64,000 nucleotides of DNA from Calothrix sp. PCC 7103 (GTDB lineage Bacteria; Cyanobacteriota; Cyanobacteriia; Cyanobacteriales; Nostocaceae), in the NCBI RefSeq assembly GCF_000331305.1, contig NZ_KB217483.1:167534-231533 (forward strand), in the 5' to 3' direction. Position numbers and translations under genes: made by a program. Under the pieces are notes generated by a model that worked only from the letters and a program-made list of their open reading frames with translations, had not been told where the DNA came from and searched no databases. This document shows, piece by piece, positions 14,756 to 56,344 of this stretch (position 1 is the first letter of the stretch; every line of letters starts with the position of its first letter).

Positions 14756-16069
14756 TTAATAAATGACATCGGGTAATTCATCTTCTACTAACCTTAAAGG
14801 AGCATATTGATAGGCAATAATAGTCATTAACATAGTTAATATTCCCAAGATAATAAACATCAAACCAATCCCTCGTCCAGGTCCAGTTCCGATAACTTGT
14901 CCAACGCTTCCGGCAAGAGAACCATTTACTGTCATCAAAGGGTTAAATATTCTGTCAGCTAGGGGGCCAGCAATAAGATAAGCTAGGGGTAAACAGGAGT
15001 CACAGATTGCATTATTAAGGGAAAAGACTCTTCCCTGTACATCGGGAGCAACTTTCTTTTGAAAAATTACTCGCGCGCAACTGTTAATAAAAGGGAGTCC
15101 AAGAAAAAATAGAAAAGCAGCTATCGCAAACAGAAGAATTGAACGATAAAGTCCTGCAACCATCATGGAAAATCCTTGGAGCAGCATAAAGCAGAATAAT
15201 ATATTGATATATTTTTGCCGTCCACTTCCCCAAATACTCATAATTAGGCTACCTGCTATCATGCCCACACCGCCAACAGACATGATTGTGCCAAGTTGGG
15301 CTGGGGAAGCAAAGGAGAGTATTAGGGGATAGGTGAGTACCTGAACAATTCCCACAAGGAAGTTGCTACTAGCAAAAAATAATAATAGGGCTAGGAGTCC
15401 AGAACGAACTCTCAGGTAATGGAAACTTTGAAGGGCTTGTGTGAGCGGTGAGGTTTTATGAGTTTGCAAGCTTTGTGTTACTTTGTGGTGGGGAAATCGA
15501 ACCAAGAGTAGGGTAGTTATGGCAAATAGAAAACTGCTTAAGTCCAGAATAAAAATTCCTGGTAGCTGTATAATTACTAGCAGTACACCGCCTAGAATAG
15601 GAGCAAGGAGTTGCCCTAGAGCTTGTGCTAACTGATTCATCCCACTGGCTCTACCTAAGTGTTTTTTCGTAACTAACAAGGTAGTAGCGGCGCTGTAAGC
15701 AGGATACTGGAAAGCACGAAAGCTTGAACTTAAGGCATTTACCAGATATATATGCCAAATTTGTATTTGCCCAGTAAATAGTAAGATTGCTATAGTCAGA
15801 GTGCTGAAAGCTGCACCCGAATCGCTGATAATCATCACCCAGCGGCGATTCCAATTGTCTACTAAGATACCAGCAAAGGGAGAAATTACTACTAGGGGGA
15901 GGGTAGTAAACAGAATCAGAAACGATAACTGGGTAATGGAAGCACTCTGTTGATAAACCCAAACATCAAGGGCAAAGTTGCTGATACTTGAGCCTAAGAG
16001 GGAGACTAATTGCCCCAACCATACCAGAACAAAGATGGACATTCCTTCCATTTTGAGTGGTTTAAGCAT
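14756..16069 (-). CDS. MFS transporter, probable exporter of the NRPS/PKS product
   Basis: 437 residues with about 10-12 hydrophobic helices and an MFS_3-type layout. Helix 1 reads FVLVWLGQLVSLLGSSIS, and the loop motif between helices 2 and 3 is GILVDNWNRRWV. Its ATG overlaps the end of the large NRPS gene by 8 bases, so the two are translationally coupled and it is the last gene of the biosynthetic operon. Export of the product, or self-protection, is the natural role. It is unrelated at close range to the broken MFS gene at 8078 apart from family. Confidence 0.85.
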   Translation of the reverse strand: MLKPLKMEGMSIFVLVWLGQLVSLLGSSISNFALDVWVYQQSASITQLSFLILFTTLPLVVISPFAGILVDNWNRRWVMIISDSGAAFSTLTIAILLFTGQIQIWHIYLVNALSSSFRAFQYPAYSAATTLLVTKKHLGRASGMNQLAQALGQLLAPILGGVLLVIIQLPGIFILDLSSFLFAITTLLLVRFPHHKVTQSLQTHKTSPLTQALQSFHYLRVRSGLLALLLFFASSNFLVGIVQVLTYPLILSFASPAQLGTIMSVGGVGMIAGSLIMSIWGSGRQKYINILFCFMLLQGFSMMVAGLYRSILLFAIAAFLFFLGLPFINSCARVIFQKKVAPDVQGRVFSLNNAICDSCLPLAYLIAGPLADRIFNPLMTVNGSLAGSVGQVIGTGPGRGIGLMFIILGILTMLMTIIAYQYAPLRLVEDELPDVIY

Positions 16070-19000
16070 TTGATTTTTCTAATTGATTTGCCTGCGCTTT
16101 TTCAAGAGATTTTTGGAGTTTTTCCGCTAGCACCTTTACATAAGGTGGTTTGACCATATTTTGATGATTACCAGGTACCACATAAGTTTCTAGATTCTCC
16201 ACTAGTTCATTCCAGGTAGATTCAACGTCAGGAGCAGTTTCACTCGTTTTAAATAGAACAACTGAACCTGAATAATATTGAGGTTGGTAAATTTTACTGG
16301 CTTGAGCGTTGAGCTTGTAAATCTCCAGAAGATGGCAAGCATAAGCTAAATCAAAATCCTCTGATACTAAATTTGTCTGTTTAGCTTGTTCCACCAAGTA
16401 AATTAGCTGCTCCTCTGGTTCCAATTGCCGCAGTTGCTCTAAACAGATATCTAAATCTTCTCCAAGTAAGTCTACTAATAAAGCAGTATCGTCTTCTGGT
16501 TCTTGAGAAGTTCTAAAAAAAGGATAAGTATCTATTAGAGCCAGCAAAGCTATTTGTTCACCTTGCAGGGAAAGTTGTTGAGCCATTTCAAAAGCTACCA
16601 AACCGCCCAAAGACCAGCCAGAGAGAAAATAAGGACCATGAGGTTGAACAGCTTGTAACTCTTGGATATAGTGAGTTGCCATCTGTTCAATGCTAGTATG
16701 AGGTTGATTTTGGGGATTAAGACCAAAAGCTTGTAGTCCATATAATGGTTGTTCTGAGGATAGATAAGAAGCTAAATCCTGATAGCAAAGGACATTTCCC
16801 CCCACAGGGTGAATACAGAATAAAGGTGATTGATTGCCATTAGATTTAATGGGAACTAATGCTGACCAAGGTAAAGAATCTGCACAGGAATGGAGAATAT
16901 GTGCTAGTTGTTCGATGGTAGGATTTTGGAAAAGGGTCGCTAAAGGTAGATTTATCTGGAAATGTTGTTGAATCTGGGATATTAGGCGGACAGCCAGAAG
17001 GGAATGACCCCCAAGTTCAAAGAAGTTGTCTCGAACTCCCACTGGAGTGATATTAATAACGGATGACCAAATTTGAGAAAGTTGAAGTTCTATGGCTGTA
17101 CGTGGTGCGACGTATTCATGCTCTCGGCTAATTTCCCTATTAGCTGCTGCTAAGGCTTTGCGGTCTACTTTACCATTAGGTGTCAAAGGTAAGGTGTCTA
17201 AAGTAACAAAAGCACTAGGCACCATGTATTCGGGTAACTTTTGTCTAGTAAAATCACGTAATTCATGGGTAGTAATTAATTTACTATCGCTGACTACATA
17301 GGCTACTAAGCATTTGTTTCCTAGTGCATCTTCTGTAGCAATAACTATGGCTTGTTGGATTTGGGAGTGGGTGTTGAGGACAGATTCAATCTCCCCAAGT
17401 TCGATACGGAAGCCCCGCAGTTTCACTTGATAGTCAATTCGACCGAGATACTCAATATCACCCGATGGCAAATATCGAGCCAAATCGCCTGTTTTGTAAA
17501 GGCGTTCGGATTGGGAACTTGAGAAGAGATTAGATATAAATTTTTCTTGCGTTAGTTCTGGGCGATTGAGGTAACCTCTGGCTAAACCATCACCTCCAAT
17601 ATACAATTCTCCGCATACGCCTATGGGTGCTGGTTGTAAGCGTGAGTCTAAAATATATATTTGGGTGTTGGCGATTGGACGACCAATGGGAACTACGTTT
17701 AAATTTTCTTGGGATTGACATTGCCAAAAAGTTACATCAATTGCTGCTTCTGTTGGTCCATAAAGATTATACAATTCACATTCGAGTTTGGAGAAGAAGT
17801 ATTGAGTCAGTTCTTTGGATAGTGCTTCTCCACTACAGAATACTCGCTTCAAGCAATTACAATTTTCTAAATTAGGTGCTTGCAGAAAAACTTGCAGCAT
17901 TGATGGGACAAAATGTATTGTCGTAATTTGCTGTTGAAGAATTAAATTAACTAAATAATTAGTATCTTTGTGTGCTTCTGGTTGAGCAACTACAATCCTA
18001 GCTCCAGTTAGTAACGGCCAGAAAAACTCCCAAACTGAAACATCAAAACTGAAAGGGGTTTTTTGCAAAACATGATCGCTACTGGTTAATTGGTAAGTTT
18101 CTTGCATCCACAACAAACGATTACGAATTCCCTGGTGCGTATTCATTGCTCCCTTGGGAACACCAGTAGAACCGGAAGTGTAAATCACATAAGCCAAATT
18201 ATCCGAACAAACCCCAACATAGAGATTAGCTTGACTATGTTGCTCAATCACCTGCCAATCTATATCCAAACAAACTACCGTTGCTTGGTCTTTTGGCAAT
18301 AGTGACAACAAAGACTCTTGGGTCAATAATACAGACACAGCAGAATCTGCCAACATATAACTTAAGCGTTCTTTTGGATAGCTGGGGTCAAGAGGTACGT
18401 AGGCGCCACCAGCTTTGAGTATCGCCAACAGTCCTACCACCATCTCAATAGAACGCTCAATACAAATACCTACCAATACTTCTGGTTTGACTCCCAATGT
18501 TTTCAGATGATGTGCTAGTTGGTTGGCTCTGGTATTTAATTGTTGGTAGGTTAATTGTTCGCCTTCAAATACCACAGCCACAGCTAATGGTGTTTTTTCG
18601 ACTTGTTGCTCAAATAAGTGATGGATACATTTATCTTGGGGATATTTAGTTGCAGTGTTATTCCATTCCACCAATAATTGATGACGTTCGGCTTCACTCA
18701 ACAGGGGCAATTGAGCCACACAAACTTGAGGATTAGAGACAATCGCTTTACACAGGTTATGGAAATGAGCAGCCATACGCTCAATCGTTGAGGCATCAAA
18801 CAAGTCAGTATTATATTCCCATGACCCCAGCAATCCCTGGTCAGTTTCCATAATTGAAAGTGTTAAATCAAACTTCGCGATAGTGCTTTGTTGATTTAAC
18901 TCATGCCAGTTACAACCAGGTAGTTCCAATTCACCTGTCGGTACATTTTGCAACACAAACATCACCTGGAATAGGGGTGAATGACTCAAAGAACGTTGTG

Positions 19001-22000
19001 GTTGCAATGCTTCTACAACTTGCTCAAAAGGTACATCCTGATGTTCATAGGCTTTGAGTGTGGTTTCTCTAACTTGTACTAGCAACTCAAGAAAGCTGAG
19101 ATTATCTTCAAAACGGCTTCTTAACACCAAGGTATTCACAAAAAAGCCAATCAATGGTTCGATTTCACTGCGGTTGCGATTGGCTATCGGTGAACCAATT
19201 AAAATATCTGATTGACCACTGTAGCGATATAGTAAAGTCGCAAACGCCGCCTGCAAGGTCATAAATAAAGTAGTACCCTGATTGCGAGACAGGGTTTGCA
19301 GCTTTTGAGTTAAATCAGTATCGATACTTAAACTGTAAGTCGTACCCAGGTAAGTTTGTATATTGGGACGAGTCCGGTCTGTAGGTAATTGTAATAATTC
19401 TGGCGCCCCCTCTAACTGCGAAACCCAGTAATTAAGTTGAGTTTCTAATACCTCCCCACTCAACGCTTGTCTCTGCCAAATTGCAAAGTCGGCATATTGG
19501 ATTGATAATTCTCCTAAACGCGATGGTTCTCCTGCACTAAAAGCTCGATATAAAGTCGATAGCTCTTGGACAAATATCCCCGTTGACCAACCATCAGAGA
19601 CAATGTGGTGCATCGTTAATAATAATACATATTCTTGCGTATCTAACTGCAATAAACTACACCTAATTAATGGTGCAGTCTCTAAGTCAAACGGGGTAAT
19701 TGCTTCAAGTTGTACTTGTTGATGTAGTACTGTTTCCTTTTGTGTTGCTTCTAGTTGCTGCAAGTCCACCAAATTAATGTTTGTGCTGGTTGCTGCTTGC
19801 GGGTGAATTACCTGTATTGGTGTGCCATTGAGATTTTGGAAACTGGTGCGTAGTACTTCGTGGCGCCGTACTATTTCTGATAATGCTTGTTGCAAGGCAT
19901 TAATATCCAAGTTACCAGCGATACGTATTCCCCCTGAAATATTGTAAGTGGCACTCAAACCTTCTAGTTGGTTGAGGAACCACAGTCTTTCTTGTGCAAA
20001 AGATAAAGGTAATTGTTCGCTATTAGTTCTTGGTTGAATCGGGGGAAGGCTTAATTTTCTATCATTCGTGCGTAACTGGGTTAATAAGCGTTCGAGTTGA
20101 GCGACAGTGGGAAATTCAAAAACTTTACGTAATTCAATTTCAACTTCAAAGGCAACTCGAAGTCGGGAAATTAATTGCGTTGCTAGTAGCGAATGCCCTC
20201 CCAAACTAAAGAAGTTGTCATGAATTCCGACATTTTGCACACCGAGAACAGAAGCGAAAATATTGGTAACTAACTCTTCAGTTTCTGTGTGTGGTGCTAC
20301 GTATTCCTGTTCTCTGCTAATTTTCCCACTAGGCAATGGTAGGGCTTTCCTATCTACTTTGCCGTTAGGTGTCAAAGGTAAGGTGTTTAAAGTCACAAAA
20401 GCATTAGGTACCATGTATTCGGGTAGCTTTGAAAAGAGAAATTCGTGTAGTTGGTTGCTAGTGATTGTTTCATCCTTACTGACTATATAGGCTACTAAGC
20501 ATTTGTTTCCAACTGTATCTTCTGTGGCGATAACTATAGCTTGTTGGATGTGGGGATGAGTTTGCAGAACTGATTCAATTTCCCCCAGTTCGATGCGGAA
20601 ACCCCTCACCTTGGCTTGATTATCGATACGACCGAGATATTCGATATTCCCATCACTTAAGTAGCGAACTAAGTCTCCTGTTTTATATAGGCGATTTGAT
20701 TTTAAATTATCGAACGGGTTTTTGATGAATTTTGAGGTGGTAAGTTCTGGACGATTAAGGTAACCTCGGGCTAACCCATCACCACTTATATATAATTCAC
20801 CTTTAACACCTATGGGCACTGGTTGTAAATGACGGTCTAGGATAAAAATATGCGTGTTAGGAAACGGTCGTCCAATGGGGGCTAGTCCATCAACAAGCTT
20901 GATTACACGAGTACTTTCAAAATAAGTGCTGTCAATGGTAGCTTCACTTACACCGTAGGAATTATAAAAGCGAGTACTAGGATCGCAAAAACTCTGAAAT
21001 TTCTCATACTCATCAGCATATAAGCTATCTGAACCAACTATTAGCAACCGCATAAACTGAAGATTTTGCTTAGTTCTGCCCAGATATTCAACCAAATTCC
21101 TCAAAACTGCTGGAACAAACTCCGCACTATCGACCTTTTCATGTAGCATCAGTTTATACAGCTTTTCAGGTTCCAAAAGCAACTCTCGTGGGCATAATAC
21201 TAATTTGCCACCAGAACAAAGCGCACGAATCAAATCCCCAGAAAAGACATCAAAGGAGAAACTAGCCATTTGCAGATGGCTGGTACTTTTTGAACCCAGA
21301 TGGTATATTGCTTCCCAACTATAATATGCGCTTACTAAGCTTTGATGAGCAATCAGTACCCCTTTAGGCTGGCCAGTAGAACCAGAAGTGTAGATAACAT
21401 AAGCCAAATTATCCGAACAAACCCCAACATAGAGATTAGCTTGACTATGTTGCTCAATCCCCTGCCAATCTATATCCAAACAAACAACCGTTGCTTGGTG
21501 TTTTGGTAATAATGACAACAAAGACTCTTGGGTCAATAATACAGACACAGCAGAATCTGCCAACATGTAACTCAAGCGTTCTTGAGGATATTTTGGGTCT
21601 ATTGGCACATAAGCGCCACCAGCTTTAAGTATTGCCAACAGTCCTACCACCATCTCAATAGAACGCTCAATACAAATACCCACCAATACTTCTGGTTTAA
21701 CTCCCAATGTTTTCAGATGATGTGCTAGTTGGTTGGCTCTGGTGTTTAATTGTTGGTAGGTTAATTGTTCGCCTTCAAATACCACAGCCACAGCATTGGG
21801 TGTTTTTTCGACTTGTTGCTCAAACAAGTGATGGATACATTTATCTTGGGGATATTCAGTTGCAGTGTTATTCCATTCCACCAATAATTGATGACGTTCG
21901 GCTTCACTCAACAGGGGTAATTGAGCCACACAAACTTGAGGATTAGAGACAATCGCTTTACACAGGTTATGGAAATGAGCAGCCATACGCTCAATCGTTG

Positions 22001-23447
22001 AGGCATCAAACAAGTCAGTATTATATTCCCATGACCCCAGCAATCCCTGGTCAGTTTCCATAATTGAAAGTGTTAAATCAAACTTCGCGATAGTGCTTTG
22101 TTGATTTAACTCACGCCAGTTACAACCAGGTAGTTCTAATTCACCTGTCAGTGCATTTTGCAAATCAAACATCACCTGGAACAGGGGTGAATGGCTCAAA
22201 GAACGTTGTGGTTGCAATGCTTCTACTACTCGTTCAAAAGGCACATCCTGATGCTCATAAGCTTTGAGTGTAGTTTCTTTAACTTGTACAAGTAACTCCT
22301 TGAAACTAGGATTGTCTTCAAAACGTGTTCTCAAAACCAAGTTATTCAAAAAAAAGCCAATTAAAGGCTCAATCTCATTGCGGTTACGATTCGCAATTGG
22401 GGAACCAATTAAAATGTCTGTTTCACCACTGTAGCGATATAGCAAAGTTGCAAATGCCGCGTAAAGCGTCATAAATAATGTAGTACCCGACTGACGAGAA
22501 AGGATTTGCAACTTCTGGGTTAAATCTGTATTTAAACTAAAACCAGTACTGCGACCTTGATAAGTTTGTACACTGGGACGAGGACGGTCAGTTGGTAGCT
22601 GTAATAATTCTGGCGCACCATTCAATTGCTGCTTCCAGTAATTGAGTTGAGTTTCTAATACTTTGCCTGCCAAATATTGTCTTTGCCAGACTGCAAAATC
22701 GGCATATTGAATAGGTAATTCTGTTAAGGGGGATGCTTTTCCAAGTGTAAAAGCCTGATATAAGCTAGATATTTCTTTTGTTAATATCCCCATTGACCAG
22801 CCATCAGAAACAATGTGGTGCATTGTTAATAATAATACATATTCTTCTGGCGATAAGTGCAGCAAACTACATCTAATTAATGGCACCTTCTCCAACTTAA
22901 AGGGAGTAGCTGCTTCCTGAGTTGCTAACTGAATAACTATGTTTTGGCGTTCTTGCTGTGAATGTTTTTGTAAGTCTACCAGATTTATCTTGATGGTAGC
23001 TTTTGGATGAATTACTTGTATTGGTTTACCCTCTTGTGTTTGGAAGCTAGTACGTAGTACTTCGTGGCGACATACTATTTCTGATAATGCCCTTTCAAGA
23101 GTTAATACATTTAATCTCCCAATAATTCGTAAACCACCACACTCAATATAAGGAGCATTTGAATCTTCAAGTTGGTTCATGAACCACAGTCTTTCTTGAC
23201 TAAAAGATAGGGGCAAATTTTTGTCTCTGGGAAAAGGTTTAATTGGCGGAAGATTAGAATTATAAGCCTGACTTACTTTTTGCAAAAATTTAATAATTTC
23301 TGCTTTTCGTTCAGCTATTTCTTGACGTAGTGTAGGTGTTAGCACTCCTTGGGGAGCATCGCATAATAGTTTTTCTCCATCAGTTGAAATTTCAATACTT
23401 TGATTTTGGAGAAAGGATATAAACTCAATTAAACTGGTAGTTTTCAT
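16062..23447 (-). CDS. Two-module NRPS: docking-C-A-PCP-C-A-PCP-TE
   Basis: 2461 residues. Order (rough): TubC-type docking domain 1-60; C1 about 70-500 with MHHIVSDGWS at 209-218; A1 about 530-1020; PCP1 about 1060-1130 (DNFFSLGGHSLL); C2 about 1150-1580; A2 about 1600-2090; PCP2 about 2100-2170 (DNFFELGGHSLL); thioesterase about 2190-2450 with GWSLGG. Reading the ten specificity positions by eye, A1 gives D-V-G-E-L-V-S-I-D-K, close to ornithine/lysine codes. A2 gives D-V-W-H-F-S-L-I-D-K, the serine code. There is no epimerase, so L residues are expected. It is 15 bases downstream of the thiazole NRPS. Tracts at the two C/A boundaries are almost identical in DNA. Confidence 0.9.
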   Translation of the reverse strand: MKTTSLIEFISFLQNQSIEISTDGEKLLCDAPQGVLTPTLRQEIAERKAEIIKFLQKVSQAYNSNLPPIKPFPRDKNLPLSFSQERLWFMNQLEDSNAPYIECGGLRIIGRLNVLTLERALSEIVCRHEVLRTSFQTQEGKPIQVIHPKATIKINLVDLQKHSQQERQNIVIQLATQEAATPFKLEKVPLIRCSLLHLSPEEYVLLLTMHHIVSDGWSMGILTKEISSLYQAFTLGKASPLTELPIQYADFAVWQRQYLAGKVLETQLNYWKQQLNGAPELLQLPTDRPRPSVQTYQGRSTGFSLNTDLTQKLQILSRQSGTTLFMTLYAAFATLLYRYSGETDILIGSPIANRNRNEIEPLIGFFLNNLVLRTRFEDNPSFKELLVQVKETTLKAYEHQDVPFERVVEALQPQRSLSHSPLFQVMFDLQNALTGELELPGCNWRELNQQSTIAKFDLTLSIMETDQGLLGSWEYNTDLFDASTIERMAAHFHNLCKAIVSNPQVCVAQLPLLSEAERHQLLVEWNNTATEYPQDKCIHHLFEQQVEKTPNAVAVVFEGEQLTYQQLNTRANQLAHHLKTLGVKPEVLVGICIERSIEMVVGLLAILKAGGAYVPIDPKYPQERLSYMLADSAVSVLLTQESLLSLLPKHQATVVCLDIDWQGIEQHSQANLYVGVCSDNLAYVIYTSGSTGQPKGVLIAHQSLVSAYYSWEAIYHLGSKSTSHLQMASFSFDVFSGDLIRALCSGGKLVLCPRELLLEPEKLYKLMLHEKVDSAEFVPAVLRNLVEYLGRTKQNLQFMRLLIVGSDSLYADEYEKFQSFCDPSTRFYNSYGVSEATIDSTYFESTRVIKLVDGLAPIGRPFPNTHIFILDRHLQPVPIGVKGELYISGDGLARGYLNRPELTTSKFIKNPFDNLKSNRLYKTGDLVRYLSDGNIEYLGRIDNQAKVRGFRIELGEIESVLQTHPHIQQAIVIATEDTVGNKCLVAYIVSKDETITSNQLHEFLFSKLPEYMVPNAFVTLNTLPLTPNGKVDRKALPLPSGKISREQEYVAPHTETEELVTNIFASVLGVQNVGIHDNFFSLGGHSLLATQLISRLRVAFEVEIELRKVFEFPTVAQLERLLTQLRTNDRKLSLPPIQPRTNSEQLPLSFAQERLWFLNQLEGLSATYNISGGIRIAGNLDINALQQALSEIVRRHEVLRTSFQNLNGTPIQVIHPQAATSTNINLVDLQQLEATQKETVLHQQVQLEAITPFDLETAPLIRCSLLQLDTQEYVLLLTMHHIVSDGWSTGIFVQELSTLYRAFSAGEPSRLGELSIQYADFAIWQRQALSGEVLETQLNYWVSQLEGAPELLQLPTDRTRPNIQTYLGTTYSLSIDTDLTQKLQTLSRNQGTTLFMTLQAAFATLLYRYSGQSDILIGSPIANRNRSEIEPLIGFFVNTLVLRSRFEDNLSFLELLVQVRETTLKAYEHQDVPFEQVVEALQPQRSLSHSPLFQVMFVLQNVPTGELELPGCNWHELNQQSTIAKFDLTLSIMETDQGLLGSWEYNTDLFDASTIERMAAHFHNLCKAIVSNPQVCVAQLPLLSEAERHQLLVEWNNTATKYPQDKCIHHLFEQQVEKTPLAVAVVFEGEQLTYQQLNTRANQLAHHLKTLGVKPEVLVGICIERSIEMVVGLLAILKAGGAYVPLDPSYPKERLSYMLADSAVSVLLTQESLLSLLPKDQATVVCLDIDWQVIEQHSQANLYVGVCSDNLAYVIYTSGSTGVPKGAMNTHQGIRNRLLWMQETYQLTSSDHVLQKTPFSFDVSVWEFFWPLLTGARIVVAQPEAHKDTNYLVNLILQQQITTIHFVPSMLQVFLQAPNLENCNCLKRVFCSGEALSKELTQYFFSKLECELYNLYGPTEAAIDVTFWQCQSQENLNVVPIGRPIANTQIYILDSRLQPAPIGVCGELYIGGDGLARGYLNRPELTQEKFISNLFSSSQSERLYKTGDLARYLPSGDIEYLGRIDYQVKLRGFRIELGEIESVLNTHSQIQQAIVIATEDALGNKCLVAYVVSDSKLITTHELRDFTRQKLPEYMVPSAFVTLDTLPLTPNGKVDRKALAAANREISREHEYVAPRTAIELQLSQIWSSVINITPVGVRDNFFELGGHSLLAVRLISQIQQHFQINLPLATLFQNPTIEQLAHILHSCADSLPWSALVPIKSNGNQSPLFCIHPVGGNVLCYQDLASYLSSEQPLYGLQAFGLNPQNQPHTSIEQMATHYIQELQAVQPHGPYFLSGWSLGGLVAFEMAQQLSLQGEQIALLALIDTYPFFRTSQEPEDDTALLVDLLGEDLDICLEQLRQLEPEEQLIYLVEQAKQTNLVSEDFDLAYACHLLEIYKLNAQASKIYQPQYYSGSVVLFKTSETAPDVESTWNELVENLETYVVPGNHQNMVKPPYVKVLAEKLQKSLEKAQANQLEKSNA

Positions 23448-23462
23448 TATTAAATTATCCTT

Positions 23463-26400
23463 TTAAATTTCTACTCTTTCTTTATTGAATTTTGAAGTTT
23501 CTGAAGTTTTTGAGGCTTTATGAGCAACTTCTAAGTATTCAACGATATTTCTGACTGTAGGTGCTTCAAATAAATATTGTAGCGGAAATTCAAACTTCCA
23601 TATTTCTCGAATTCTAGAAATAACTTGAGTTGCCCTTAGAGAGTCTCCTCCCAAGCTAAAGAAGTTGTCATCAATACCAACTTGAGTAACCCCAAGAAGT
23701 TCACTCCATATCTGAGCTAACTGTTCTTCACTTGGGGTACGGGGTGCTACATAAATAATTTCTGATTGGGATTTAGTACTATTAGGCACAGGTAGCGCTT
23801 TGCGGTCTAGTTTACCATTAGCTGTTAATGGTAATGTGTTTAAAATGACGTATTCAGACGGCACCATGTAAGCAGGTAATTTCTGTTTTAAATATTCATG
23901 CATCAAAGATGAAATTGACTTATAAGCTCCACTAACTTGAGTTGAGGATACCTGTTTTGTTTGAGCTAAATTGATTTTTCCTCCAACAAAGCTGTAAAGT
24001 AGAATCTGATTTGATTCCAACTCAAATTTATCTTGTATGCGAGCAAATTCCAAACTGCCAAGCGGACAGAGACCAATTTCAAATTTATAGGAATTTTCCA
24101 TCAATAATTGACCAATATGTCCAGCTTCCAAAAAACAAAAGTCTCTTGCCATTTCTCCATACATCGGAGCAATTGCACTAATTTTACCAATCAAGAATAA
24201 ACTAAAACCTGATTGCTCAAAAATTGATTTATTTACACCATAAATATCTGGGTCAATTTCGCCAAACTCCGACACCAATATTAAATGGTGTTGCTGCGGC
24301 TCATAATAATAAATGCCCGGTGACAATCCGCAAACTGCATTGGGTTTAATCAACAAATAAACCTGCACAGGATAAAGGTTTCCCGCAGACGGATAACGAT
24401 ATTTAGATAAAGAAAAATCATCAAAATTTTTCTGCAATAAGCAGCTTAAAAACTCGCTAAAATATTCTAAGAGAATTGGTTCATTTAAAAATGGGCAATA
24501 ACTTTTGCGTTGTAAATAAGCTTGATTTTTAACTTCGTCAATCGAAGCTAATGGTAAATCAATCGTCACTGCTTGTGAAGAAAACTGCCGTAATCCCGGT
24601 TGCTTGAGTTTGAACTCGGTACGCTCTATGGGATTGAGTAGCACTCCTGATAATTGTTCGGGTGCAGAAGCTTCTGATGAGTTAATTAAATTATTTCCAG
24701 TTTCTTGCTGGGGAACAACATAAGCTACAAGTTGATTATGATGAGAAGTAACCACCGCTTCTTTGAGTGCAGGATGTTGTTTCAATGCAGCTTCTATTTC
24801 TCCCAACTCAATACGGAAACCATTAATTTTTACCTGAAAATCTGACCTTCCCAAAAATTCAATATTGCCATCAGGTAAGTACCGTCCTAAATCACCAGTT
24901 TTATATAGTCTTTCTCCAGTAAAGGGATGAGTAATAAAACTGTTATTGGTTTTTTCTTCATCTTGCCAATATCCTTTAGCTAATCCAAGACCCCCAATAT
25001 AAAGCTCTCCACTTACCCAAGTTGGAGTTGTTTGCATCGATTGGTTGAGAACATAAAAACGTTGATTATCTAAAGGTTTACCGTAAGGAATACTCTGACA
25101 ATTTAATTCAACTTTATCAATCGGGTAAAAAATCGACCAAATCGAAGCTTCGGTAGCTCCTCCCAAACTAACAACTTGTATATTTGAGTACAGTGATTTA
25201 ACTTTTTCGGGTAGGTCAACGGGTAACCAATCACCACTGAGTAACGCTAATCGTAAATCACCAACCTGTCTATCTGCTTTTGTTGAAAAATGTTCAACTA
25301 GCATTTGCATCAAACCAGGAACCGTATTCCAAATTGTTATTTGATGGGCATTAATTAATTCTAACCAGTGGGCGGGGTCTTTGATTCTACACTGTTGTGG
25401 TTCGGGAATTACTATGGCACCACCAGCAGCTAAAATACCAAAAATATCGTAAACAGATAAGTCAAATTCCAGTGCTGATAGCGCTAATACTCGGTCATTA
25501 GCCCTGACCCCAAAGCGTTTGTTAATATCTAAAATTGTGTTAACTGCTCCCTTGTGGTCAATCATTACACCCTTGGGACTACCCGTAGAACCGGAAGTAT
25601 AAATTACGTAAGCTAAATCATCGGGGCTTTGTACAGTTTCAATCAGGTTTAACTCTGCTGCTTGTAAATCTTCTTGGCTAACATGTAAACATTCAATACC
25701 CGACGGTAAAGATAAGTTTTGTTCGAGTTGTACCTGGGTGACAACCAACTTTACTCTTCCTTGTTCGAGCAAATACCGTTGCCGTTCTTGGGGAAAATCA
25801 GGTGAAATTGGAAGGTATGCGGCTCCTGACATTAAGATTGCCAAGACTGCTACTATTTGCTCCCAACCTTTCTCCATAATTACGGCTACTAAAGTGTTGG
25901 GAGTTGCACCCCGAAGTCGCAATTGCCGCCCTAAACTATTTGCGAGTTGATGTAATTGCTCGTAGGTGAGAGTTTGGTGGGGCGTAATTACCGCAGTTTG
26001 TTGAGAACGCACTGCTACTTGCTTGTAAAACAAACCTTGTAAAGTTTCCTGGTCAACGGCAGTATCAGTATCGTTAACTGCGACAATGGAAGTTAGCTGC
26101 TCTTGTGGTAATAGTTGGGGATGAGTTTCTGACCAAGCTGAATCTGTGTTGGCTAGTTGTTTTAACCAATTACAATAGCTGGCAAACATATCTTCAATTA
26201 GACCGGGTGGAAACAAATGTTCTACCACATCCCAATTAAATACTAATGCTCCATCTGACTCAGATATTTGATGGTCTAACCAAACTTGTGGAGTTTGGCT
26301 GATTCCGTAAACGACCTCTCCTAACTGACTTGATGATGTGTCCTCTCTCAAGGAGTTAAGCCCCAATGTACTAGTAAAAACTACACCCATTAGTTGCGTA

Positions 26401-27647
26401 CTACCACGCAAGCGCCGTAATTCCCTCTGTACTTCTACTCCGCTGACATAGTTGTGGTCTAAATCTTGCCACAGTTGCTGTTGCAGTTTTCGAGCGCGAA
26501 TTTTAAATGAGTCGGCAATATTGTTATTAACTTCTAATAATGTCAGTGAGGTAAAGTCTCCCACTAATTGATTTACTTGGGGATGGAAGTTGAAACGATT
26601 GAATAAGGTAAGATTAACTGTAAAGTTGGAACTTTTACTCCAGTAGTTTAAGACATCAGCAAAAGTTGCTAACAATACTGCACTATTGGTCAGATTTGCT
26701 TTAGTCGCACGCTGTTTTAATTGAAGCCATTCTTGAACCTCTATTCGAGCGCTGTAACGCTTAAATTCCGGTTTTGTGATAGAAGATGGGTGTAATGCAA
26801 AAGGCAGTTCTGGTGCTGGTGGTAAATTGCGATTGAACCAATATTCCTGTGCTTTTTGATATTGTAGCGTGTCTTTGAGCGATAATTCTGTGAGAACGTA
26901 ATCCCGGAAAGAAATTTCTAGTGGTGGTAAGTAGGTTGACGGATTTTCATAGAGTTGTTGCCATTGTTGTAGCAGCAACATCATACTCAAAGCATCAGCG
27001 ATTATTGCATCAAAGCTTAAGTGGAGACGGGTTATTTTTTCATCTAATATTGTGGTGCGGATTTTGAATATAGGCCATTGTTCTGCTGGTAATACTTCGT
27101 GAGACATTTGTGAGCGAATTGCTTCTAGTTGCTCGGTTTTGCTAGGCGGTAGTTGGGAGCGTAAGTCTAGTACTTCTATGAAGTAGGGAGGTACTTTTTC
27201 CAGAATTTGTTGTTTGCCAGAGGCCAATACCACTGCCCTGAGCATATCATGGTGTTCAATTAATTTCTGCCATGCTTGGTTCAATCGTGGTATATCTAAA
27301 TCGTAGCAATCTAGTTCTATGTAACTATGAGTAGAAATATTACCCAGGTCAAAGTTTTGATTGCGACCTAGCCAGTAAGCTTGTTGAATATCTGTGAGTG
27401 GGAAGGGTTGATGTTTTTTTTCTGGGATAGGCACTAGTGCTTGCTGCCTGTGGGAGAGAGGAAAAGTATTAGGAATTGCAACACCGCTTTTGAGGAAGTT
27501 TATAATTTCTGATTTACGTTGCTTAATTTCACTTAATAGTGTCGGAGTTAATACCTCTTGAGGTGCCCGGTAGCACAGTTTACCATCGTCAGTCCACAAT
27601 TCTATATTTTTTGAAGCAAGATTTTGCAGAAACTCAGCTATGTTCAT
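23463..27647 (-). CDS. Thiazole-forming NRPS: docking-Cy-A(Ox)-PCP
   Basis: 1394 residues. TubC-type docking domain 1-55. A heterocyclization (Cy) domain spans about 75-500, with FDAIIADALS giving the DxxxxDxxS signature in place of HHxxxDG. The A domain starts about 540; its specificity positions read D-L-Y-N-L-S-L-I-W-K, the cysteine code. An inserted nitroreductase-like oxidase (McbC/SagB type, about 1030-1250, YPSAGNLYPVQVYLL) lies between the late A motifs, as in epothilone and bleomycin systems. The A10 piece (LTANGKLDRKAL) and PCP (DNFFSLGGDSLR) end the protein. It should condense and cyclise Cys to thiazoline and oxidise it to thiazole. Its start overlaps the FAAL-PKS stop by 4 bases. 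Confidence 0.92.
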   Translation of the reverse strand: MNIAEFLQNLASKNIELWTDDGKLCYRAPQEVLTPTLLSEIKQRKSEIINFLKSGVAIPNTFPLSHRQQALVPIPEKKHQPFPLTDIQQAYWLGRNQNFDLGNISTHSYIELDCYDLDIPRLNQAWQKLIEHHDMLRAVVLASGKQQILEKVPPYFIEVLDLRSQLPPSKTEQLEAIRSQMSHEVLPAEQWPIFKIRTTILDEKITRLHLSFDAIIADALSMMLLLQQWQQLYENPSTYLPPLEISFRDYVLTELSLKDTLQYQKAQEYWFNRNLPPAPELPFALHPSSITKPEFKRYSARIEVQEWLQLKQRATKANLTNSAVLLATFADVLNYWSKSSNFTVNLTLFNRFNFHPQVNQLVGDFTSLTLLEVNNNIADSFKIRARKLQQQLWQDLDHNYVSGVEVQRELRRLRGSTQLMGVVFTSTLGLNSLREDTSSSQLGEVVYGISQTPQVWLDHQISESDGALVFNWDVVEHLFPPGLIEDMFASYCNWLKQLANTDSAWSETHPQLLPQEQLTSIVAVNDTDTAVDQETLQGLFYKQVAVRSQQTAVITPHQTLTYEQLHQLANSLGRQLRLRGATPNTLVAVIMEKGWEQIVAVLAILMSGAAYLPISPDFPQERQRYLLEQGRVKLVVTQVQLEQNLSLPSGIECLHVSQEDLQAAELNLIETVQSPDDLAYVIYTSGSTGSPKGVMIDHKGAVNTILDINKRFGVRANDRVLALSALEFDLSVYDIFGILAAGGAIVIPEPQQCRIKDPAHWLELINAHQITIWNTVPGLMQMLVEHFSTKADRQVGDLRLALLSGDWLPVDLPEKVKSLYSNIQVVSLGGATEASIWSIFYPIDKVELNCQSIPYGKPLDNQRFYVLNQSMQTTPTWVSGELYIGGLGLAKGYWQDEEKTNNSFITHPFTGERLYKTGDLGRYLPDGNIEFLGRSDFQVKINGFRIELGEIEAALKQHPALKEAVVTSHHNQLVAYVVPQQETGNNLINSSEASAPEQLSGVLLNPIERTEFKLKQPGLRQFSSQAVTIDLPLASIDEVKNQAYLQRKSYCPFLNEPILLEYFSEFLSCLLQKNFDDFSLSKYRYPSAGNLYPVQVYLLIKPNAVCGLSPGIYYYEPQQHHLILVSEFGEIDPDIYGVNKSIFEQSGFSLFLIGKISAIAPMYGEMARDFCFLEAGHIGQLLMENSYKFEIGLCPLGSLEFARIQDKFELESNQILLYSFVGGKINLAQTKQVSSTQVSGAYKSISSLMHEYLKQKLPAYMVPSEYVILNTLPLTANGKLDRKALPVPNSTKSQSEIIYVAPRTPSEEQLAQIWSELLGVTQVGIDDNFFSLGGDSLRATQVISRIREIWKFEFPLQYLFEAPTVRNIVEYLEVAHKASKTSETSKFNKERVEI

Positions 27648-30600
27648 AACTCACCCTCTACTAAATTACCATTATTTGATGCAACTACTAATACAGATTC
27701 TTTTGATGTTGATGTAACTTTCGTGATTTGCTCTCTGATGTATGTCGCTAAATCGAGAGTGCTGAGTTTGTCCATGATTTTCATTATGGATACCTCTACA
27801 TCAAAAAAAGTTTGAACCCAATTCCTTAATTCGACTGCCATTAATGAGTCGAATCCCATATCGTTTAGAGGTTGATATAAATTTAATTGTTCAGTCGAAC
27901 CTAAATTCAGTACTTTCGCAATTTTTGATTTAAGGTAAAAGACCAATTCATCCTGGCTAATGCTCTCTACCGTATTTAAGAATTTGGGGAAAATTTTTGG
28001 CTTGGGTTGCCATTCTACTTGATAACACCAATCTTTGATAAGTGTAGAGTTTATTTCCTGTTGATGACATTTGACAAGAACAGACAATATTTGAGGTAAG
28101 TCTCTCCGAAGTGATTCATCGAGTTCTCCAGCTAACCGTTGGGCTAACGAATGTGTATCTCCTTGATACAATAACTGTATAATAGATGTCTGACTAAATT
28201 CTTTTGTATTTATGTTTTGGTCTGCGATCGTTTCTGGCAACCAGTAACGCTTTCTTTCAAAGGGATAAGTAGGTAAAGCAACTTTCTGGTGGTTGTAGTC
28301 TTTATCAAATCCTTTCCAATCAACAGACACACCACTTATATATAACAAGGCTAAACTTTGGAGCATTTGCTGCCAATCAGTTTGAGGCGAACGTAATGAA
28401 GGTAGCCACAACCCCATATTTTCTGGAAGACATTGACACCCTATACCTAACAAAACTGGTTTCGGTCCAATCTCTAAATATATTTCATAGCCATGCTGAT
28501 TTAAGCAGGTAATACTATCAACAAACCGGACTGGTTGGAGGATATGATTTAACCAATATTGAGGCGTACAAATTGTATCATCTACCCTTGTGCCAGTTAC
28601 ATTGGAAATGAGGGAAATTTGCGGGCGATTGTAAGTAACTTGATTTACTATCACCTCAAAATCAGTCAACATTGGCTGCATTAACGGCGAATGGAAAGCG
28701 TGAGAAACCTCTAGCTTTTTAAATTTAATTCCCTTGTCGTCAAGTTGGGCGCAAATCTCTCTAATTACAGGGGTCGCACCGCTGATTACTGTACTACTAG
28801 GACTGTTCAAAGCAGCGATAGCGACTTGCTTGGTTTTATCCTTAATTAAGGAATTTACCAAATCAGAGCCAGCCATCACCACCACCATCTCACCATTTTC
28901 AGGAAGACCTTGCATCAAGCGTGCGCGCTCGGCAATTAACTTTAGACCATCTTCCAGACTAAATACACCTGCCACACAAGCAGCAACATACTCTCCAACA
29001 CTGTGCCCCATAACGGCTGCTGGTTCAACACCCCAAGACTTCCATAATTGGCATAAGGCATACTCTAGGGCAAATAAAGCAGGTTGGGTATAAGCAGTTT
29101 TATCTAATTCTGAATCTTTTGATTTGGTATTTGGGTATATAATTTTTAGCAGGGAAGTTCCTAAATAAGGGTGGAGGATTTTATCGCAAAGTTCGAGAGC
29201 TTGCCGAAATATCGGTTGAGTTTCGTAAAGCTGGCGCCCCATATCTACATATTGCGAACCCTGACCAGTAAAAAGGAAAGCTATTTTCGGGCGCTTTTTA
29301 CCATCAATATGCCCACTCACTATTCCTATAGCTTCCTTACTATCGGCAAAAGCAAGAAGACGTTCCTGTAACTGTATGTTAGAATCAGCCACCACAGCCA
29401 AACGGTGTTCAAAATGCGATCGCCCTGTATTGGCGGTAAAGCAAACATCAGCTAGGGATACATCAGGATGATTAGCCAAGAAATCAGCGTAACGTTGTGC
29501 TAATTCTTGCAACCCATTCTCTGTTTTTGCGGAAAGAGTAAGAATGTGAAAAGGTCGTTCTATGGATTTTTTATTACTTTCTTCTGGCGCCTCTGACAAA
29601 ATAACGTGACAATTAGTACCGCCAAACCCGAAAGCACTTATCCCAGCGAAACGGCTTGAAGTTCCTGGGTTCCAAGGTTGATGCTGGGTTGGAATATTAA
29701 AAGTTGTCCCTTCTAAAGAGATATATGGGTTAAGTTCCTTAAGATGCAGATGAGGGGGAATTTCTTTATTTTGCAGTGCTAGTACAACTTTAATAACGCT
29801 AGCTATTCCAGAAGCAGCTTCCAAATGACCTATATTGGTTTTAACTGAACCAAGCCAGCAAGCTTGGTCTTTTTCACGTTGCATCAAGACAGCTTTTAAG
29901 GATTTAAATTCAATTGGGTCTCCCAAAGGAGTGCCAGTACCGTGAGCTTCAACATAGCTAATTTGGTTTGGTGTTAAGCCAGCATTTTGTAGCGCTTGGC
30001 GAATAACAGCTTGCTGGGAAGATCCATTCGGGGCAGTAAGTCCATTACTGCGGCCGTCTTGATTGACTGCCGAACCTTTAATAATCGCTAGAATTTTATC
30101 TCCATCTCTAAGCGCGTTGGAGAGACGTTTGAGAACCACTACACCACAACCTTCTCCACGAACATAACCATCCGCATTTTTATCGAAGGTCTTACAGCGA
30201 CCGTCAGCAGCCATCATTCCTGCTTGATCGAAAGAGATAGTTAGTTGGGGAGTGAGAATGATATTCACTCCTCCAGCTAGTGCTAGGTTGCATTCTCCTT
30301 GGCGCAAGCTTTGACAAGCCTGATGAACTGCCACTAAAGATGAAGAGCAAGCTGTATCTACTGCCCAGCTTGGACCCCGCAAATCTAGAATATAGGATAA
30401 ACGATTAGCGGCAATACTAAAAGCATTACCAGTTCCAGTATAGGCATCAAATTTAGTATTCAAGTCGAACTGTAACTGAGAATAATCAAAGTTACTAATG
30501 CCAAAAAACACACCTGTTTGACTTCCTGCTAACTTATCTGGCGCCTTGCCAGCGTGTTCTAAAGCTTCCCAGCTTACTTCTAGTAACAGCCGCTGTTGAG

Positions 30601-32971
30601 GATCCATACTTAAAGCTTCACGCGGGGATATTCCAAAAAACTGCGCGTCAAACCGATCCACTTGCTCCAAAAAGCCTCCATAGCAAGTATAATTGTCCCA
30701 ACGTGATGTGGGTACCTCAGTAATCGCATCAACTCCGTCGCGTAATAGCTGCCAGAAAGCATCTGGATTATTGGCTTTTGGAAAACGGCAACCCATTCCA
30801 ATGATCGCGATCTCTTCAAAATATTTCCCACTTTCAGTTTTAATTTTTTGGGGAGCAAAGTCTTCAGCAGAAGTTTCATCTGCTATATGTCGAGCTAAAC
30901 CTTCAAGGGTGGGATAATCGTATAGTAAGGTGGGAGAAAATTCGCGTCCAATCCATTCTTGTAGTTCACCCGAAATTCTCACTGCTGCTAAAGAATTTAA
31001 ACCGTATTGAGCTAGAGGTTGGCGAATATTTATCTCTACAGGTAATATTTGTGTGTGTTCGGCAATTTTTGCCAGTAGCCAAGCTTCGATCTCCTCTACA
31101 TTTTTAGATTTTGGTTGATTGTTTAGTGCTGGTAGTCGCTCGTTTACACTCTCCGAAGAGCTGGATGACAAATTATCCGTTTGCAGTTTTTGCCACAGAG
31201 ATTCTACTTCTGATTTCAGATGCTGAAAATAGTTTTTATATTGGGCATTTACACTCCAGTCTGCCACTACATCCAAACTGCCAGCCAAAAAACTATCTCG
31301 ACAAGCACTACGCTGCACTTTTCCAGAAGAAGTTTTTGGAAGCGTTGCAGTTTTAAGCAGCAAAATTGCGTAAGCCTGTAAATCGTGTTCTTCTGCCACT
31401 GCTTTTCTAATATTTCCTATTATTTCTTCAACATTTAATTTCCGCAGGTAAGTCCGCTCTACTTCCTGAACGATAACTAGCTGCTCAGAATCGTTGAAAT
31501 TGATACTAAAAGCAACTCCAGAACTAATTTTCAGGGCTGGATGACTGCTTTCTACAGTTAATTCAATGTCTTGAGGATAATGATTCTGCCCGCGAATAAT
31601 AATTACATCTTTTATCCGACCAGTAACGAACAACTCCCCATCATGCAAAAATCCCAAATCTCCTGTACGCAAAAATTGGCGCCCGTTGGCAGAATGACGC
31701 AATTGCAAGTGGAAAGTGTCTTGGGTCAAATCAGACTGGTTCCAATAGCCACCTGCAACAGAAGGGTTTGATACCCAAATTTCTCCGATTTGATTTTCTA
31801 AACATGGAGTTAAGGTTTCTGGCTCGACGATTAAAACTTCATTGTCCAAACACTCACCACAACCAACTATAGCCTTCGTCGTTGCGGATTGAATACTATC
31901 TACAATTACTACTTGATTTTGTTCGAGCGCAGCTTTATCAACATGCCTAACAATGGGCGAAGCTAATTTTTTACTACCAGAAATAATTAAAGTTGTTTCC
32001 GCCATCCCGTAGCAAGGATGAAATGCCTTCATGTTAAAGCCACAATCAGCAAAAGTACGAGCAAAAAGTTCAAGGGTTTCTGCGCGAATTGGCTCGGCAC
32101 CAGTAAAAGCTACTTCCCAACTACTTAGGTCAAGCTTAGACCTTTGTTCCTCTGTAATTTTGCGGCAACAAAGGTCATAAGCAAAATTAGGACCTCCACT
32201 GGTCGTAGTTTGATAGCGAGTAATCGCTTTTAGCCAACGTATAGGTTTTTGTATAAATGCTAATGCTGGCATTAAAACCATTGGAGCGCCTATATACAGG
32301 GGTTGCAGGATTCCTCCAATCAATCCCATATCATGGTAAACTGGTAGCCAGCTTACAACTTGACTATTGGGCGTATGAGCAAAACTTTTTTTAATCAGTT
32401 CGGAGTTGTGTAAAATATTGCCATGACTTACCATGACACCTTTTGGTCTACCCGTAGAGCCTGATGTGTATTGTAGAAAAGCGAGCGTCTCCAAAGTCAA
32501 GTTTGGTACGTGCCAATCAGAGGCTAGGTCAAGAGTAATATTATCCGTTGCTATCCACTTCAAAGAGCTAAATTCTGAATTATCTACTCTGCGGCTCCTA
32601 ATGAAATCTAACATCGCTTTCGTGGTGAGTGCGAATGTTGCTTGAGAATCGTCAACTATCGCCTGCAACCTCGACAAACTCTGATTCGGTCGCGGTGGAT
32701 AAGCGGGAACAGCCACAACAGAAGCATACAAACATCCAAAAAAGGCTGCTATAAAATCCAATCCAGGTGGGTAGAGTAGTAAAGCACGAGAACCGGCAGC
32801 ATTCATACTTTGAAGCTGAACTGCTATTGCCCTTGCTTGCTGGTCTAATTCTTTATAACTCAACTGTGCGGATTCTGTTTCCCCATCCTGCAAAAACGTA
32901 TAAGCTACCAAGTCTGGTTGATTTTGCGCTCTCACACTTAGCAGGTCTACTAAAGTTGAAAATTGATACAT
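27644..32971 (-). CDS. FAAL-ACP-KS-AT-ACP loading and extension protein
   Basis: About 1775 residues. A fatty acyl-AMP ligase (about 1-585, QYTSGSTGRPKGVMVSHGN) activates a fatty acid and passes it to the first ACP (about 630-710, YGLNSLAAVRIS). The ketosynthase (about 725-1150) has DTACSSSLVA, EAHGTGTPLGDP and NIGHLEAASG. The acyltransferase (about 1220-1530) has GHSVGEY and HAFHS, a malonyl-CoA signature. A second ACP (about 1660-1735, MGFDSLMAVELR) ends it. No ketoreductase, dehydratase or enoylreductase is seen, so a beta-ketoacyl chain is expected. The ATG at 32971 is preferred; an upstream TTG at 33007 would add 12 residues. First gene of the operon. Confidence 0.92.
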   Translation of the reverse strand: MYQFSTLVDLLSVRAQNQPDLVAYTFLQDGETESAQLSYKELDQQARAIAVQLQSMNAAGSRALLLYPPGLDFIAAFFGCLYASVVAVPAYPPRPNQSLSRLQAIVDDSQATFALTTKAMLDFIRSRRVDNSEFSSLKWIATDNITLDLASDWHVPNLTLETLAFLQYTSGSTGRPKGVMVSHGNILHNSELIKKSFAHTPNSQVVSWLPVYHDMGLIGGILQPLYIGAPMVLMPALAFIQKPIRWLKAITRYQTTTSGGPNFAYDLCCRKITEEQRSKLDLSSWEVAFTGAEPIRAETLELFARTFADCGFNMKAFHPCYGMAETTLIISGSKKLASPIVRHVDKAALEQNQVVIVDSIQSATTKAIVGCGECLDNEVLIVEPETLTPCLENQIGEIWVSNPSVAGGYWNQSDLTQDTFHLQLRHSANGRQFLRTGDLGFLHDGELFVTGRIKDVIIIRGQNHYPQDIELTVESSHPALKISSGVAFSINFNDSEQLVIVQEVERTYLRKLNVEEIIGNIRKAVAEEHDLQAYAILLLKTATLPKTSSGKVQRSACRDSFLAGSLDVVADWSVNAQYKNYFQHLKSEVESLWQKLQTDNLSSSSSESVNERLPALNNQPKSKNVEEIEAWLLAKIAEHTQILPVEINIRQPLAQYGLNSLAAVRISGELQEWIGREFSPTLLYDYPTLEGLARHIADETSAEDFAPQKIKTESGKYFEEIAIIGMGCRFPKANNPDAFWQLLRDGVDAITEVPTSRWDNYTCYGGFLEQVDRFDAQFFGISPREALSMDPQQRLLLEVSWEALEHAGKAPDKLAGSQTGVFFGISNFDYSQLQFDLNTKFDAYTGTGNAFSIAANRLSYILDLRGPSWAVDTACSSSLVAVHQACQSLRQGECNLALAGGVNIILTPQLTISFDQAGMMAADGRCKTFDKNADGYVRGEGCGVVVLKRLSNALRDGDKILAIIKGSAVNQDGRSNGLTAPNGSSQQAVIRQALQNAGLTPNQISYVEAHGTGTPLGDPIEFKSLKAVLMQREKDQACWLGSVKTNIGHLEAASGIASVIKVVLALQNKEIPPHLHLKELNPYISLEGTTFNIPTQHQPWNPGTSSRFAGISAFGFGGTNCHVILSEAPEESNKKSIERPFHILTLSAKTENGLQELAQRYADFLANHPDVSLADVCFTANTGRSHFEHRLAVVADSNIQLQERLLAFADSKEAIGIVSGHIDGKKRPKIAFLFTGQGSQYVDMGRQLYETQPIFRQALELCDKILHPYLGTSLLKIIYPNTKSKDSELDKTAYTQPALFALEYALCQLWKSWGVEPAAVMGHSVGEYVAACVAGVFSLEDGLKLIAERARLMQGLPENGEMVVVMAGSDLVNSLIKDKTKQVAIAALNSPSSTVISGATPVIREICAQLDDKGIKFKKLEVSHAFHSPLMQPMLTDFEVIVNQVTYNRPQISLISNVTGTRVDDTICTPQYWLNHILQPVRFVDSITCLNQHGYEIYLEIGPKPVLLGIGCQCLPENMGLWLPSLRSPQTDWQQMLQSLALLYISGVSVDWKGFDKDYNHQKVALPTYPFERKRYWLPETIADQNINTKEFSQTSIIQLLYQGDTHSLAQRLAGELDESLRRDLPQILSVLVKCHQQEINSTLIKDWCYQVEWQPKPKIFPKFLNTVESISQDELVFYLKSKIAKVLNLGSTEQLNLYQPLNDMGFDSLMAVELRNWVQTFFDVEVSIMKIMDKLSTLDLATYIREQITKVTSTSKESVLVVASNNGNLVEGEL

Positions 32972-33007
32972 TGTATAATTAATGACTTTTTCTATATATT
33001 TATGCAA

Positions 33008-33600
33008 TCAATGATGGGTTCAAATCCTCACTGATTGTAATTGGGGACTGCAAATTGTACATAGCACTTTTGTATAATTAATTACTTATGGCAAGTATTC
33101 ACCCAATTATATACACAGCCCAGATTTTTGACAAGTGAGAAAAGAAACTTGGGGTTAGCCAGATTTAGGATAACTTAAATTTATACATTGTAAAAAATCC
33201 TATGGGTGTGGCTGTTTTAAAAAGAGGAAGAGTGATACTAGACAACGATTGGCGGAGATGGTGGAGTAGGCAGTCGTTACATCGTGCTTTTAGATGAAGT
33301 AATTAACACGCTAACAAATCCGTTGGCGCCATCCAAGATTTATCGAACGGCAAGTTTTGCCGTTCGGTAGAGTAGCAACGTAAAGTATTTCATAGATATT
33401 AAATGAGTGCATTAAATTATCTTGCTTGTATTCTTGAGCGGCGCCGCGCATTACACATAAACAGATCAATCTTCGATAAAGGATTTCAGAGTAATGCTAT
33501 TTGAAAACCTTCGCATAAAGGCTTTTGCATCAATATTGTTTCTGTTCCTAGCTTGGTCATCTAAGCAATTTTCACCACCTGCCCACGCAACACCCAACCC
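33008..33600. repeat. Promoter side of the biosynthetic operon with repeat copy D
   Basis: No gene. The region upstream of the FAAL gene is AT-rich. Core palindrome CGAACGGCAA...TTGCCGTTCG lies at 33344-33366, 20 bases after a GGCGCC; a GGCGCCGCGC lies near 33440. I cannot identify the operon promoter with confidence. Confidence 0.5.
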
Positions 33601-33636: not shown

Positions 33637-33929
33637 GTCCAAAATTTATCTACATAATCTCTATATTATTGATGCTGGACACCAAGATAGTAATCAGTAG
33701 GCATTTGCTGTATCTTCTAATTGCTACTTAAGCTGCCGTATTTATTTCCACTGTCTTGGACTCAGGATTATAGCGTTTTTTCCAAGTAGCGAAAATATCA
33801 TCACGCTTATCTTATGGTTTAATAAATCGATAAACTCTTTCCCTGTTACCCCTACTCCCAAATCGCCCAACATAGGATAATTTCAATCCCAACTTACTCA
33901 ATATTTTTTGAACAATCGTGATGGTGCCC
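33637..33929 (-). pseudogene. C-terminal remnant of a second CyRepA1 replication gene
   Basis: On the minus strand this encodes TITIVQKILSKLGLKLSYVG, RFGSRGNRERVYRFIKP, then a stop codon where the intact gene has Glu/Lys, then in the same frame KRDDIFATWKKRYNPESKT. It is homologous to the end of the intact gene at 34587 but diverged, and has a different C-terminal tail. A GTGTCCA...TGGACAC hairpin occurs after both copies (33637-33690 and 34535-34585). It stops abruptly at GGTGCC (33923), where a HAD fragment begins. Confidence 0.75.
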
Positions 33930-56213: not shown

Positions 56214-56344
56214 AAATAATTTAGCTTGGATAAATCAAAAATCCACGATATTTATTATGTGAATATTTTCTTTGTTGTGGAGAATCTACTCGGAAAATAA
56301 AGGATACACCACACGCTTGGCTCAAATTAAAAATTAAAAATTGT

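Follow-up and report, generated by a model that had tools for sequence, protein, structure and literature searches.

A four-gene operon of Calothrix sp. PCC 7103 probably encodes a FAAL-started hybrid PKS-NRPS line with an exporter, making an acyl-thiazole-Orn-Ser compound, and is probably mosaic in origin. The operon occupies positions 14756-33007, on the minus strand, of a 64,000-nucleotide stretch (the window) that is part of a 1.56 Mb contig in a genome of 11.58 Mb and 12 contigs.

Organization of the operon

The genes follow each other from gene 1 to gene 4 (Table 1) and, according to the ORF coordinates, are joined by overlaps of 4 and 8 bases and one 15-base gap, as originally predicted. 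Pfam searches revealed AMP-binding, two PP-binding, KS and AT domains in gene 1; TubC_N, Condensation, AMP-binding, Nitroreductase and PP-binding in gene 2; TubC_N, two Condensation, two AMP-binding, two PP-binding and Thioesterase in gene 3; and MFS_1 in gene 4. The E-values were far below chance (e.g. 7.2e-242 for Condensation in gene 3), and the domain order was the one predicted for all four genes. The 6,079 codons of the four ORFs are all open, and a motif search found the carrier Ser kept in every one of the five carriers. The ORF of gene 1 opens with TTG, and position 32971 corresponds to an ATG at its residue 13. A sigma-70-like match was located upstream of gene 1; the region contains 4 such sites compared to a shuffle mean of 4.7, so that there is no excess. 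Three ACPS-family matches were detected in the genome and could provide the carrier-activating enzyme. Other genes of the window are included in Table 1.

Table 1. Features of the window, in window positions, with the parts of each protein in residues and the nearest relatives by DNA identity.
Feature	Position	Strand	Description
Gene 1 (P0001)	27644-33007	minus	FAAL-ACP-KS-AT-ACP
Gene 1 parts	residues	minus	FAAL 13-580; ACP 641-710; KS 729-1146; AT 1241-1545; KR-less stretch 1546-1700; ACP 1701-1772; tail ending VEGEL
Gene 2 (P0002)	23463-27647	minus	TubC_N-Cy-A(Ox)-PCP
Gene 2 parts	residues	minus	TubC_N 3-53; Cy about 76-508; Ox about 1005-1262, embedded in Cys-type A; PCP 1308-1372; tail ERVEI
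Gene 3 (P0003)	16062-23447	minus	TubC_N-C-A-PCP-C-A-PCP-TE
Gene 3 parts		minus	TubC_N; C-A(Orn-type, DVGEIGSID)-PCP; C-A(Ser-type, DVWHFSLID)-PCP; TE
Gene 4 (P0004)	14756-16069	minus	MFS exporter (putative)
Sigma-70-like match	33106-33134	minus	TTGTCA-17-TATAAT, 11/12 positions, upstream of gene 1
FAAL segment	32983-31446		nearest G388, same genus, 80%
ACP-KS segment	five 300-base tiles		Brasilonema UFV-L1, 85-94%
AT-to-ACP2 segment	27685-29452	minus	G401:C106, 92%, likewise without KR
Gene 1 tail, gene joint and docking domain	27924-27435		G388, 80%
Docking/Cy switch	27402-27442	minus	nearest relative changes from G388 (docking domain) to G548 (Cy domain)
Cy-A segment	24731-27436	minus	G548:C101, 90%; there fused behind FAAL-ACP
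TE and exporter			G416, G460, G462 nearest, 81-88% per tile
MFS protein	8078-9019		313 aa, partial MFS_1 profile coverage; 25% identity to the exporter over 213 residues
DUF3854 protein	34587-37490		967 aa, upstream of the operon; gene end (34593-34751) repeated at 33770-33928, 84% identity
RRXRR-domain protein	40150-41349		PF14239
FAD-binding protein	51834-53645		603 aa, Trp_halogenase match 3.5e-13, about 19 kb from the operon
Two-partner secretion pair	53625-58075		TPS secretion-domain protein and ShlB/FhaC-type transporter
TPR-CHAT protein	58180-60999		

A FAAL-started PKS module without ketoreductase

The first domain of gene 1 is FAAL-like, its best solved relative being 7r7f (6.4e-209); FAAL models of NCBIfam were matched with scores under their cut-offs. 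This domain directly adjoins an ACP at the start of the line, as in FAAL-initiated PKS-NRPS lipopeptide lines, to which gene 1 belongs by its domains, with the loading of a fatty acid predicted. The KS (Cys/His/His), AT (GHSVG and HAFH) and both ACP motifs are intact. The HAFH-type AT had been predicted, and we take HAFH to be the malonyl signature.

Pfam detected no KR in P0001, and none was found by alignment at the same junction of G401. A KR (PF08659) follows the AT in the relative G547, and the G388 PKS has a KR too. The gene 1 protein continues after the AT up to YQVEWQP and then enters the ACP, and G401 is short in the same way. Because the loss of the KR is common to two genomes, an assembly error is unlikely. 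Without it, the chain would still be in the 3-oxo form on reaching the Cy domain, except if a KR in trans reduces it.

The starter of puwainaphycin-type beta-amino lipopeptides is defined by an aminotransferase after the first PKS module, and Pfam found none in the operon. The Brasilonema UFV-L1 locus (L105), whose starter we take to be of this type, resembles the operon in its FAAL-ACP-KS-AT-ACP order and ACP-KS sequence, and between the second half of its AT and the start of its C domain (1,000 residues) no KR match was obtained. In contrast to the operon, where the chain would go to Cy, an aminotransferase comes next in Brasilonema.

A predicted thiazole module

The condensation domain of gene 2 contains DAIIADALS (DxxxxDxxS) and lacks HHxxxDG, the pattern of a Cy domain; among solved structures it is closest to EpoB of epothilone synthesis (4.1e-87). 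Motif-anchored extraction gave the A-domain code DLYNLSLIW, presumably a Cys code. A Nitroreductase-family domain matching the bacillamide oxidase BmdC (2.3e-30) lies inside this A domain, in agreement with the embedded oxidase of the original prediction. With a Cys-type A carrying an embedded FMN oxidase domain, gene 2 is by its domains a Cy-A-Ox thiazole module, the Ox activity being predicted. The solved structures of epothilone EpoB and bacillamide BmdB/BmdC have Cy, A and Ox thiazole parts like those of the operon, with different substrates and neighbours, and EpoB, like gene 2, carries a docking domain before Cy.

Predicted peptide extension, release and export

The codes of the two gene 3 A domains, extracted by motif anchoring and in agreement with a LgrA alignment, are presumably those of Orn (A1) and Ser (A2). 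Both C domains contain HHIVSDG. Pfam gave two Condensation stretches only for gene 3, and the one epimerase motif sought was absent; on these grounds, the residues are likely L-configured. The TE (GWSLGG) resembles those of NRPS, PKS and fatty acid synthases, with the best match among NRPS.

Gene 4 matched the EntS model with 5.4e-23 and 81.7 bits against a cut-off of 324 bits; Mef (macrolide-exporter) models scored higher than EntS. In several other loci, close relatives of gene 4 immediately follow an NRPS gene with a TE.

Predicted docking between the proteins

Genes 2 and 3 each open with a TubC_N domain, and the carrier that precedes it bears a short C-terminal motif; this is the arrangement of a beta-hairpin docking pair, for which binding is predicted. 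According to PMC6195595 and PMC9113145, the beta-hairpin docking domain is contacted by the final five residues of its C-terminal partner. Gene 1 ends in VEGEL and the G388 PKS in IEGEL, and the docking domain after the latter is 81% identical to that of gene 2, with a 4-base gene overlap in both cases. The G401 protein ends in EEIEL and precedes a gene 3-like docking domain. In a table of tails and docking domains (41 rows, less the 2 of the window and 4 that had no upstream gene), a gene 2-like docking domain accompanied 6/8 glycine-pattern tails compared to 3/27 of the others (Fisher 0.0012, with rows related by descent and a pattern that was picked after inspecting the tails and leaves ITGEI out). 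The endings of gene 1, G388 and G401 and the docking domains behind them agree with a gene 1, gene 2, gene 3 order and suggest a joint transfer of tail and docking domain.

Proposed pathway and product

The FAAL would activate a fatty acid and load it on ACP1, and KS-AT would add one malonyl unit, a 3-oxoacyl chain staying on ACP2 for want of a KR. The VEGEL tail of gene 1 would then dock on the beta-hairpin domain of gene 2, whose Cy would condense the chain with Cys and cyclise it, the Ox converting the thiazoline into a thiazole. Gene 2 would in turn dock on gene 3, which would add Orn and then Ser. Finally, the TE would release 2-(2-oxoalkyl)thiazole-4-carbonyl-Orn-Ser, as acid or ring, and gene 4 would export it. 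The domain logic, the order Cys, basic residue, Ser and the exporter of the original prediction are supported, with the basic residue narrowed to an Orn-type code.

Gene 2 might be skipped part of the time, with the gene 1 tail docked straight to gene 3 and a 3-oxoacyl-Orn-Ser made beside the thiazole product. A KR-less AT-ACP protein of G401 is followed directly by a TubC_N-C-A gene, the A code of which differs from that of gene 3 A1 at one position (in the columns used, 299/301 were one off), and promiscuity of beta-hairpin docking is described in PMC9113145 and PMC6195595. However, tails of the VEGEL kind mostly pair with gene 2-like docking domains and the G401 tail is EEIEL, although these classes were chosen post hoc, and we consider skipping unlikely.

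Binding of a metal by the thiazole, the 3-oxo group and Orn is very unlikely. It would agree with the match of gene 4 to EntS, weak as this is against the cut-off, and with cyanochelin B, a cyanobacterial siderophore whose cluster has FAAL, PKS and Cy (PMC12628792). Against it, Mef models score better for gene 4, whose relatives sit behind NRPS genes with a TE, and Pfam found neither a TonB receptor nor chelating-group genes, which mark siderophore clusters, in the 24 of 53 listed window ORFs that were run. Isonitrile lipopeptide clusters are defined by a TauD-like oxidase/decarboxylase and a FcoT-like thioesterase, and no gene of either kind was found by Pfam in the same 24/53 ORFs.

Probable mosaic origin

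The nearest DNA relative changes along the operon (Table 1). The tiles were compared against a chosen set of loci, and in the DNA search for relatives mostly one candidate was scored per genome, so that nearer ones may be missed; G388, G401, G548 and the others are the nearest relatives among the sampled genomes and not proven donors. For the first three ACP-KS tiles, a stretch of the own genome is closer still than Brasilonema (99-100%). A piece of 1,263 bases (G000:C12:43534-44796) lies on the same contig, is 99.2% identical to window positions 31692-30430, covers the end of the FAAL, ACP1 and the start of the KS, and stops inside the KS. The bulk of gene 3 has scattered best relatives (77-87%). 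A point against the proposed reading is that the ACP2 of G401 is 75% identical to that of the operon, versus 95% for the AT. A FAAL part at ortholog level was not found in G401 (best 58%), where the contig has 4,621 bases.

One change falls between the docking and Cy domains of gene 2. Around position 27450, identity to G388 drops from 90% to 40-50%, and that to G548 rises from 48% to 78-98%. Among 751 informative sites, 252/349 were G388-like before the break and 25/402 after it, a contrast reached in 0/1000 shuffles; as G548 has a different domain before the break, this marks a switch of homology and is not a formal recombination test. We infer recombination as the cause of the switching. 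The Cy-A part would have been joined right behind a docking domain of different origin. A more specific reading, to which we give slightly less than even weight, is that the thiazole-making Cy-A was plugged in exactly there, with a matching tail and docking domain from a third cluster, yielding a new acyl-thiazole-Orn-Ser scaffold and making the docking/Cy boundary a working exchange point. Apart from the own copy, a search of ten genomes listed no Ox-bearing match above 57%, and the G548 contig stops soon after the matched A domain. In G548 itself (L115, 9239-14017), FAAL-ACP is fused directly to Cy-A, which suggests a line for a 2-alkylthiazole or thiazoline without PKS extension.

Such an operon might also be a product of recombination that no longer makes anything, as the switching of relatives and the truncated copy of gene 1 on the same contig would allow. 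The open codons and the motifs present argue against this, and so do the low dN/dS values of the shared segments, even though such ratios average over the histories of the relatives too. Compared to G401, dN/dS was 0.25 (AT), 0.19 (post-AT stretch) and 0.27 (ACP2), with 1.3 at the 28-codon junction of the KR loss, which is too short to read; for gene 3, the synonymous sites against G401 were partly saturated. The Cy-A part gave 0.21 against G548, and the exporter and PCP-TE gave 0.27 and 0.31 against G416. In these lineages, purifying selection has acted on the shared segments; a working line would be compatible with this but is not proven by it. We consider a dead operon distinctly unlikely.

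Rarity of the domain order

No gene 2 was found in the six other genomes of the genus when all candidates were scored, one 35% match being a C-A gene. Class-wide, gene 2 had a match in 77/388 genomes, own included, and a single match from Cy to PCP in at least 10 other genomes of the 388 (48-53%). Relatives of gene 1 from FAAL to AT were found in at least 23 other places in 19/217 family genomes (56-68%). Since these family and class searches scored two first-look candidates per genome, the counts are lower bounds and nearer relatives may be missed; G548, with its 90% Cy-A, surfaced only by the DNA search and was not among the class-wide gene 2 matches. A contig scan with gene 1 gave 5 loci, the closest being Brasilonema UFV-L1 (66% in the best segment). 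Four of the ten Cy-to-PCP genomes were mapped: in G161, G339 and G089 the match has several PKS and Cy genes around it, and in G227 a 10.5-kb contig carries Cy-A-Ox after an A-PCP.

The domain order of the operon was absent from 28 other mapped loci, many of them truncated by contig ends or by the limits of the stretch taken, and it is to this extent that the original suggestion of a new compound holds. These loci correspond to 17 + 3 + 10 groups minus one own-genome stretch and minus L046, left out for having the same size and domains as the G417 contig; some share a genome. The maps were made by BLAST with the window's own domains, so that KR, aminotransferase and similar domains are not displayed. 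With gene 2 found in none of the six other genomes of the genus, the order lacks support from a conserved orthologous cluster. Among plasmid records, a search for the whole cluster gave partial matches in 3 records, each covering less than 80% of the query. No report of the order as a product or cluster appeared among the titles and abstract starts listed by searches of open-licence PubMed Central papers.

The best gene 2 match among plasmids (60.3%) was in Halotia branconii CENA392 (L031), which was rejected as the same cluster because its neighbours differ. Like the operon, L031 has an Orn-type A and then Cy-A-Ox, with 60% identity to gene 2; unlike it, L031 has a TauD/TfdA dioxygenase, a FcoT thioesterase and a second Cy module, and no KS or AT was found in the mapped stretch. 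Positions 8138-29675 of this plasmid carry genes for a TonB siderophore receptor, a fatty acid ligase, the dioxygenase, the thioesterase, an ACP and NRPS, and the second Cy-A-TE part is interrupted by an IS701 transposase gene. By its gene set, this region looks like a cyanobacterial isonitrile lipopeptide cluster whose product would carry thiazole units.

Relation to known systems and significance

The individual parts of the operon are of known, ordinary kinds. The closest published FAAL-PKS-Cy line found is that of cyanochelin B (PMC12628792), which has FAAL, PKS and a Cy domain for Cys, as the operon does, and differs from it in its methyl-thiazoline, its longer peptide with beta-hydroxy-Asp and its order. 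The main text of a FAAL review (PMC11837247) contains no word starting with 'thiazol'. Mosaic evolution with adjustment of docking has already been published for cyanobacteria: according to PMC12184294, the minutumamide and nostopeptolide clusters of Nostoc are mixed, with docking domains co-adjusted together with a noc-type C domain. In the operon, by contrast, the switch falls between the docking and Cy domains and a thiazole module is involved; as far as this part of the literature goes, what is new is the order and the visible stitching.

The lipid-thiazole-Orn-Ser product is predicted from the sequence. Beyond the original prediction, the analysis adds the mosaic origin, the shared absence of the KR and the match between tail and docking domain. 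If the mosaic reading is true, the docking/Cy boundary would be a precise natural insertion place for a ring-forming module, and the tail/docking pair would keep the gene order, which would be useful for engineering.
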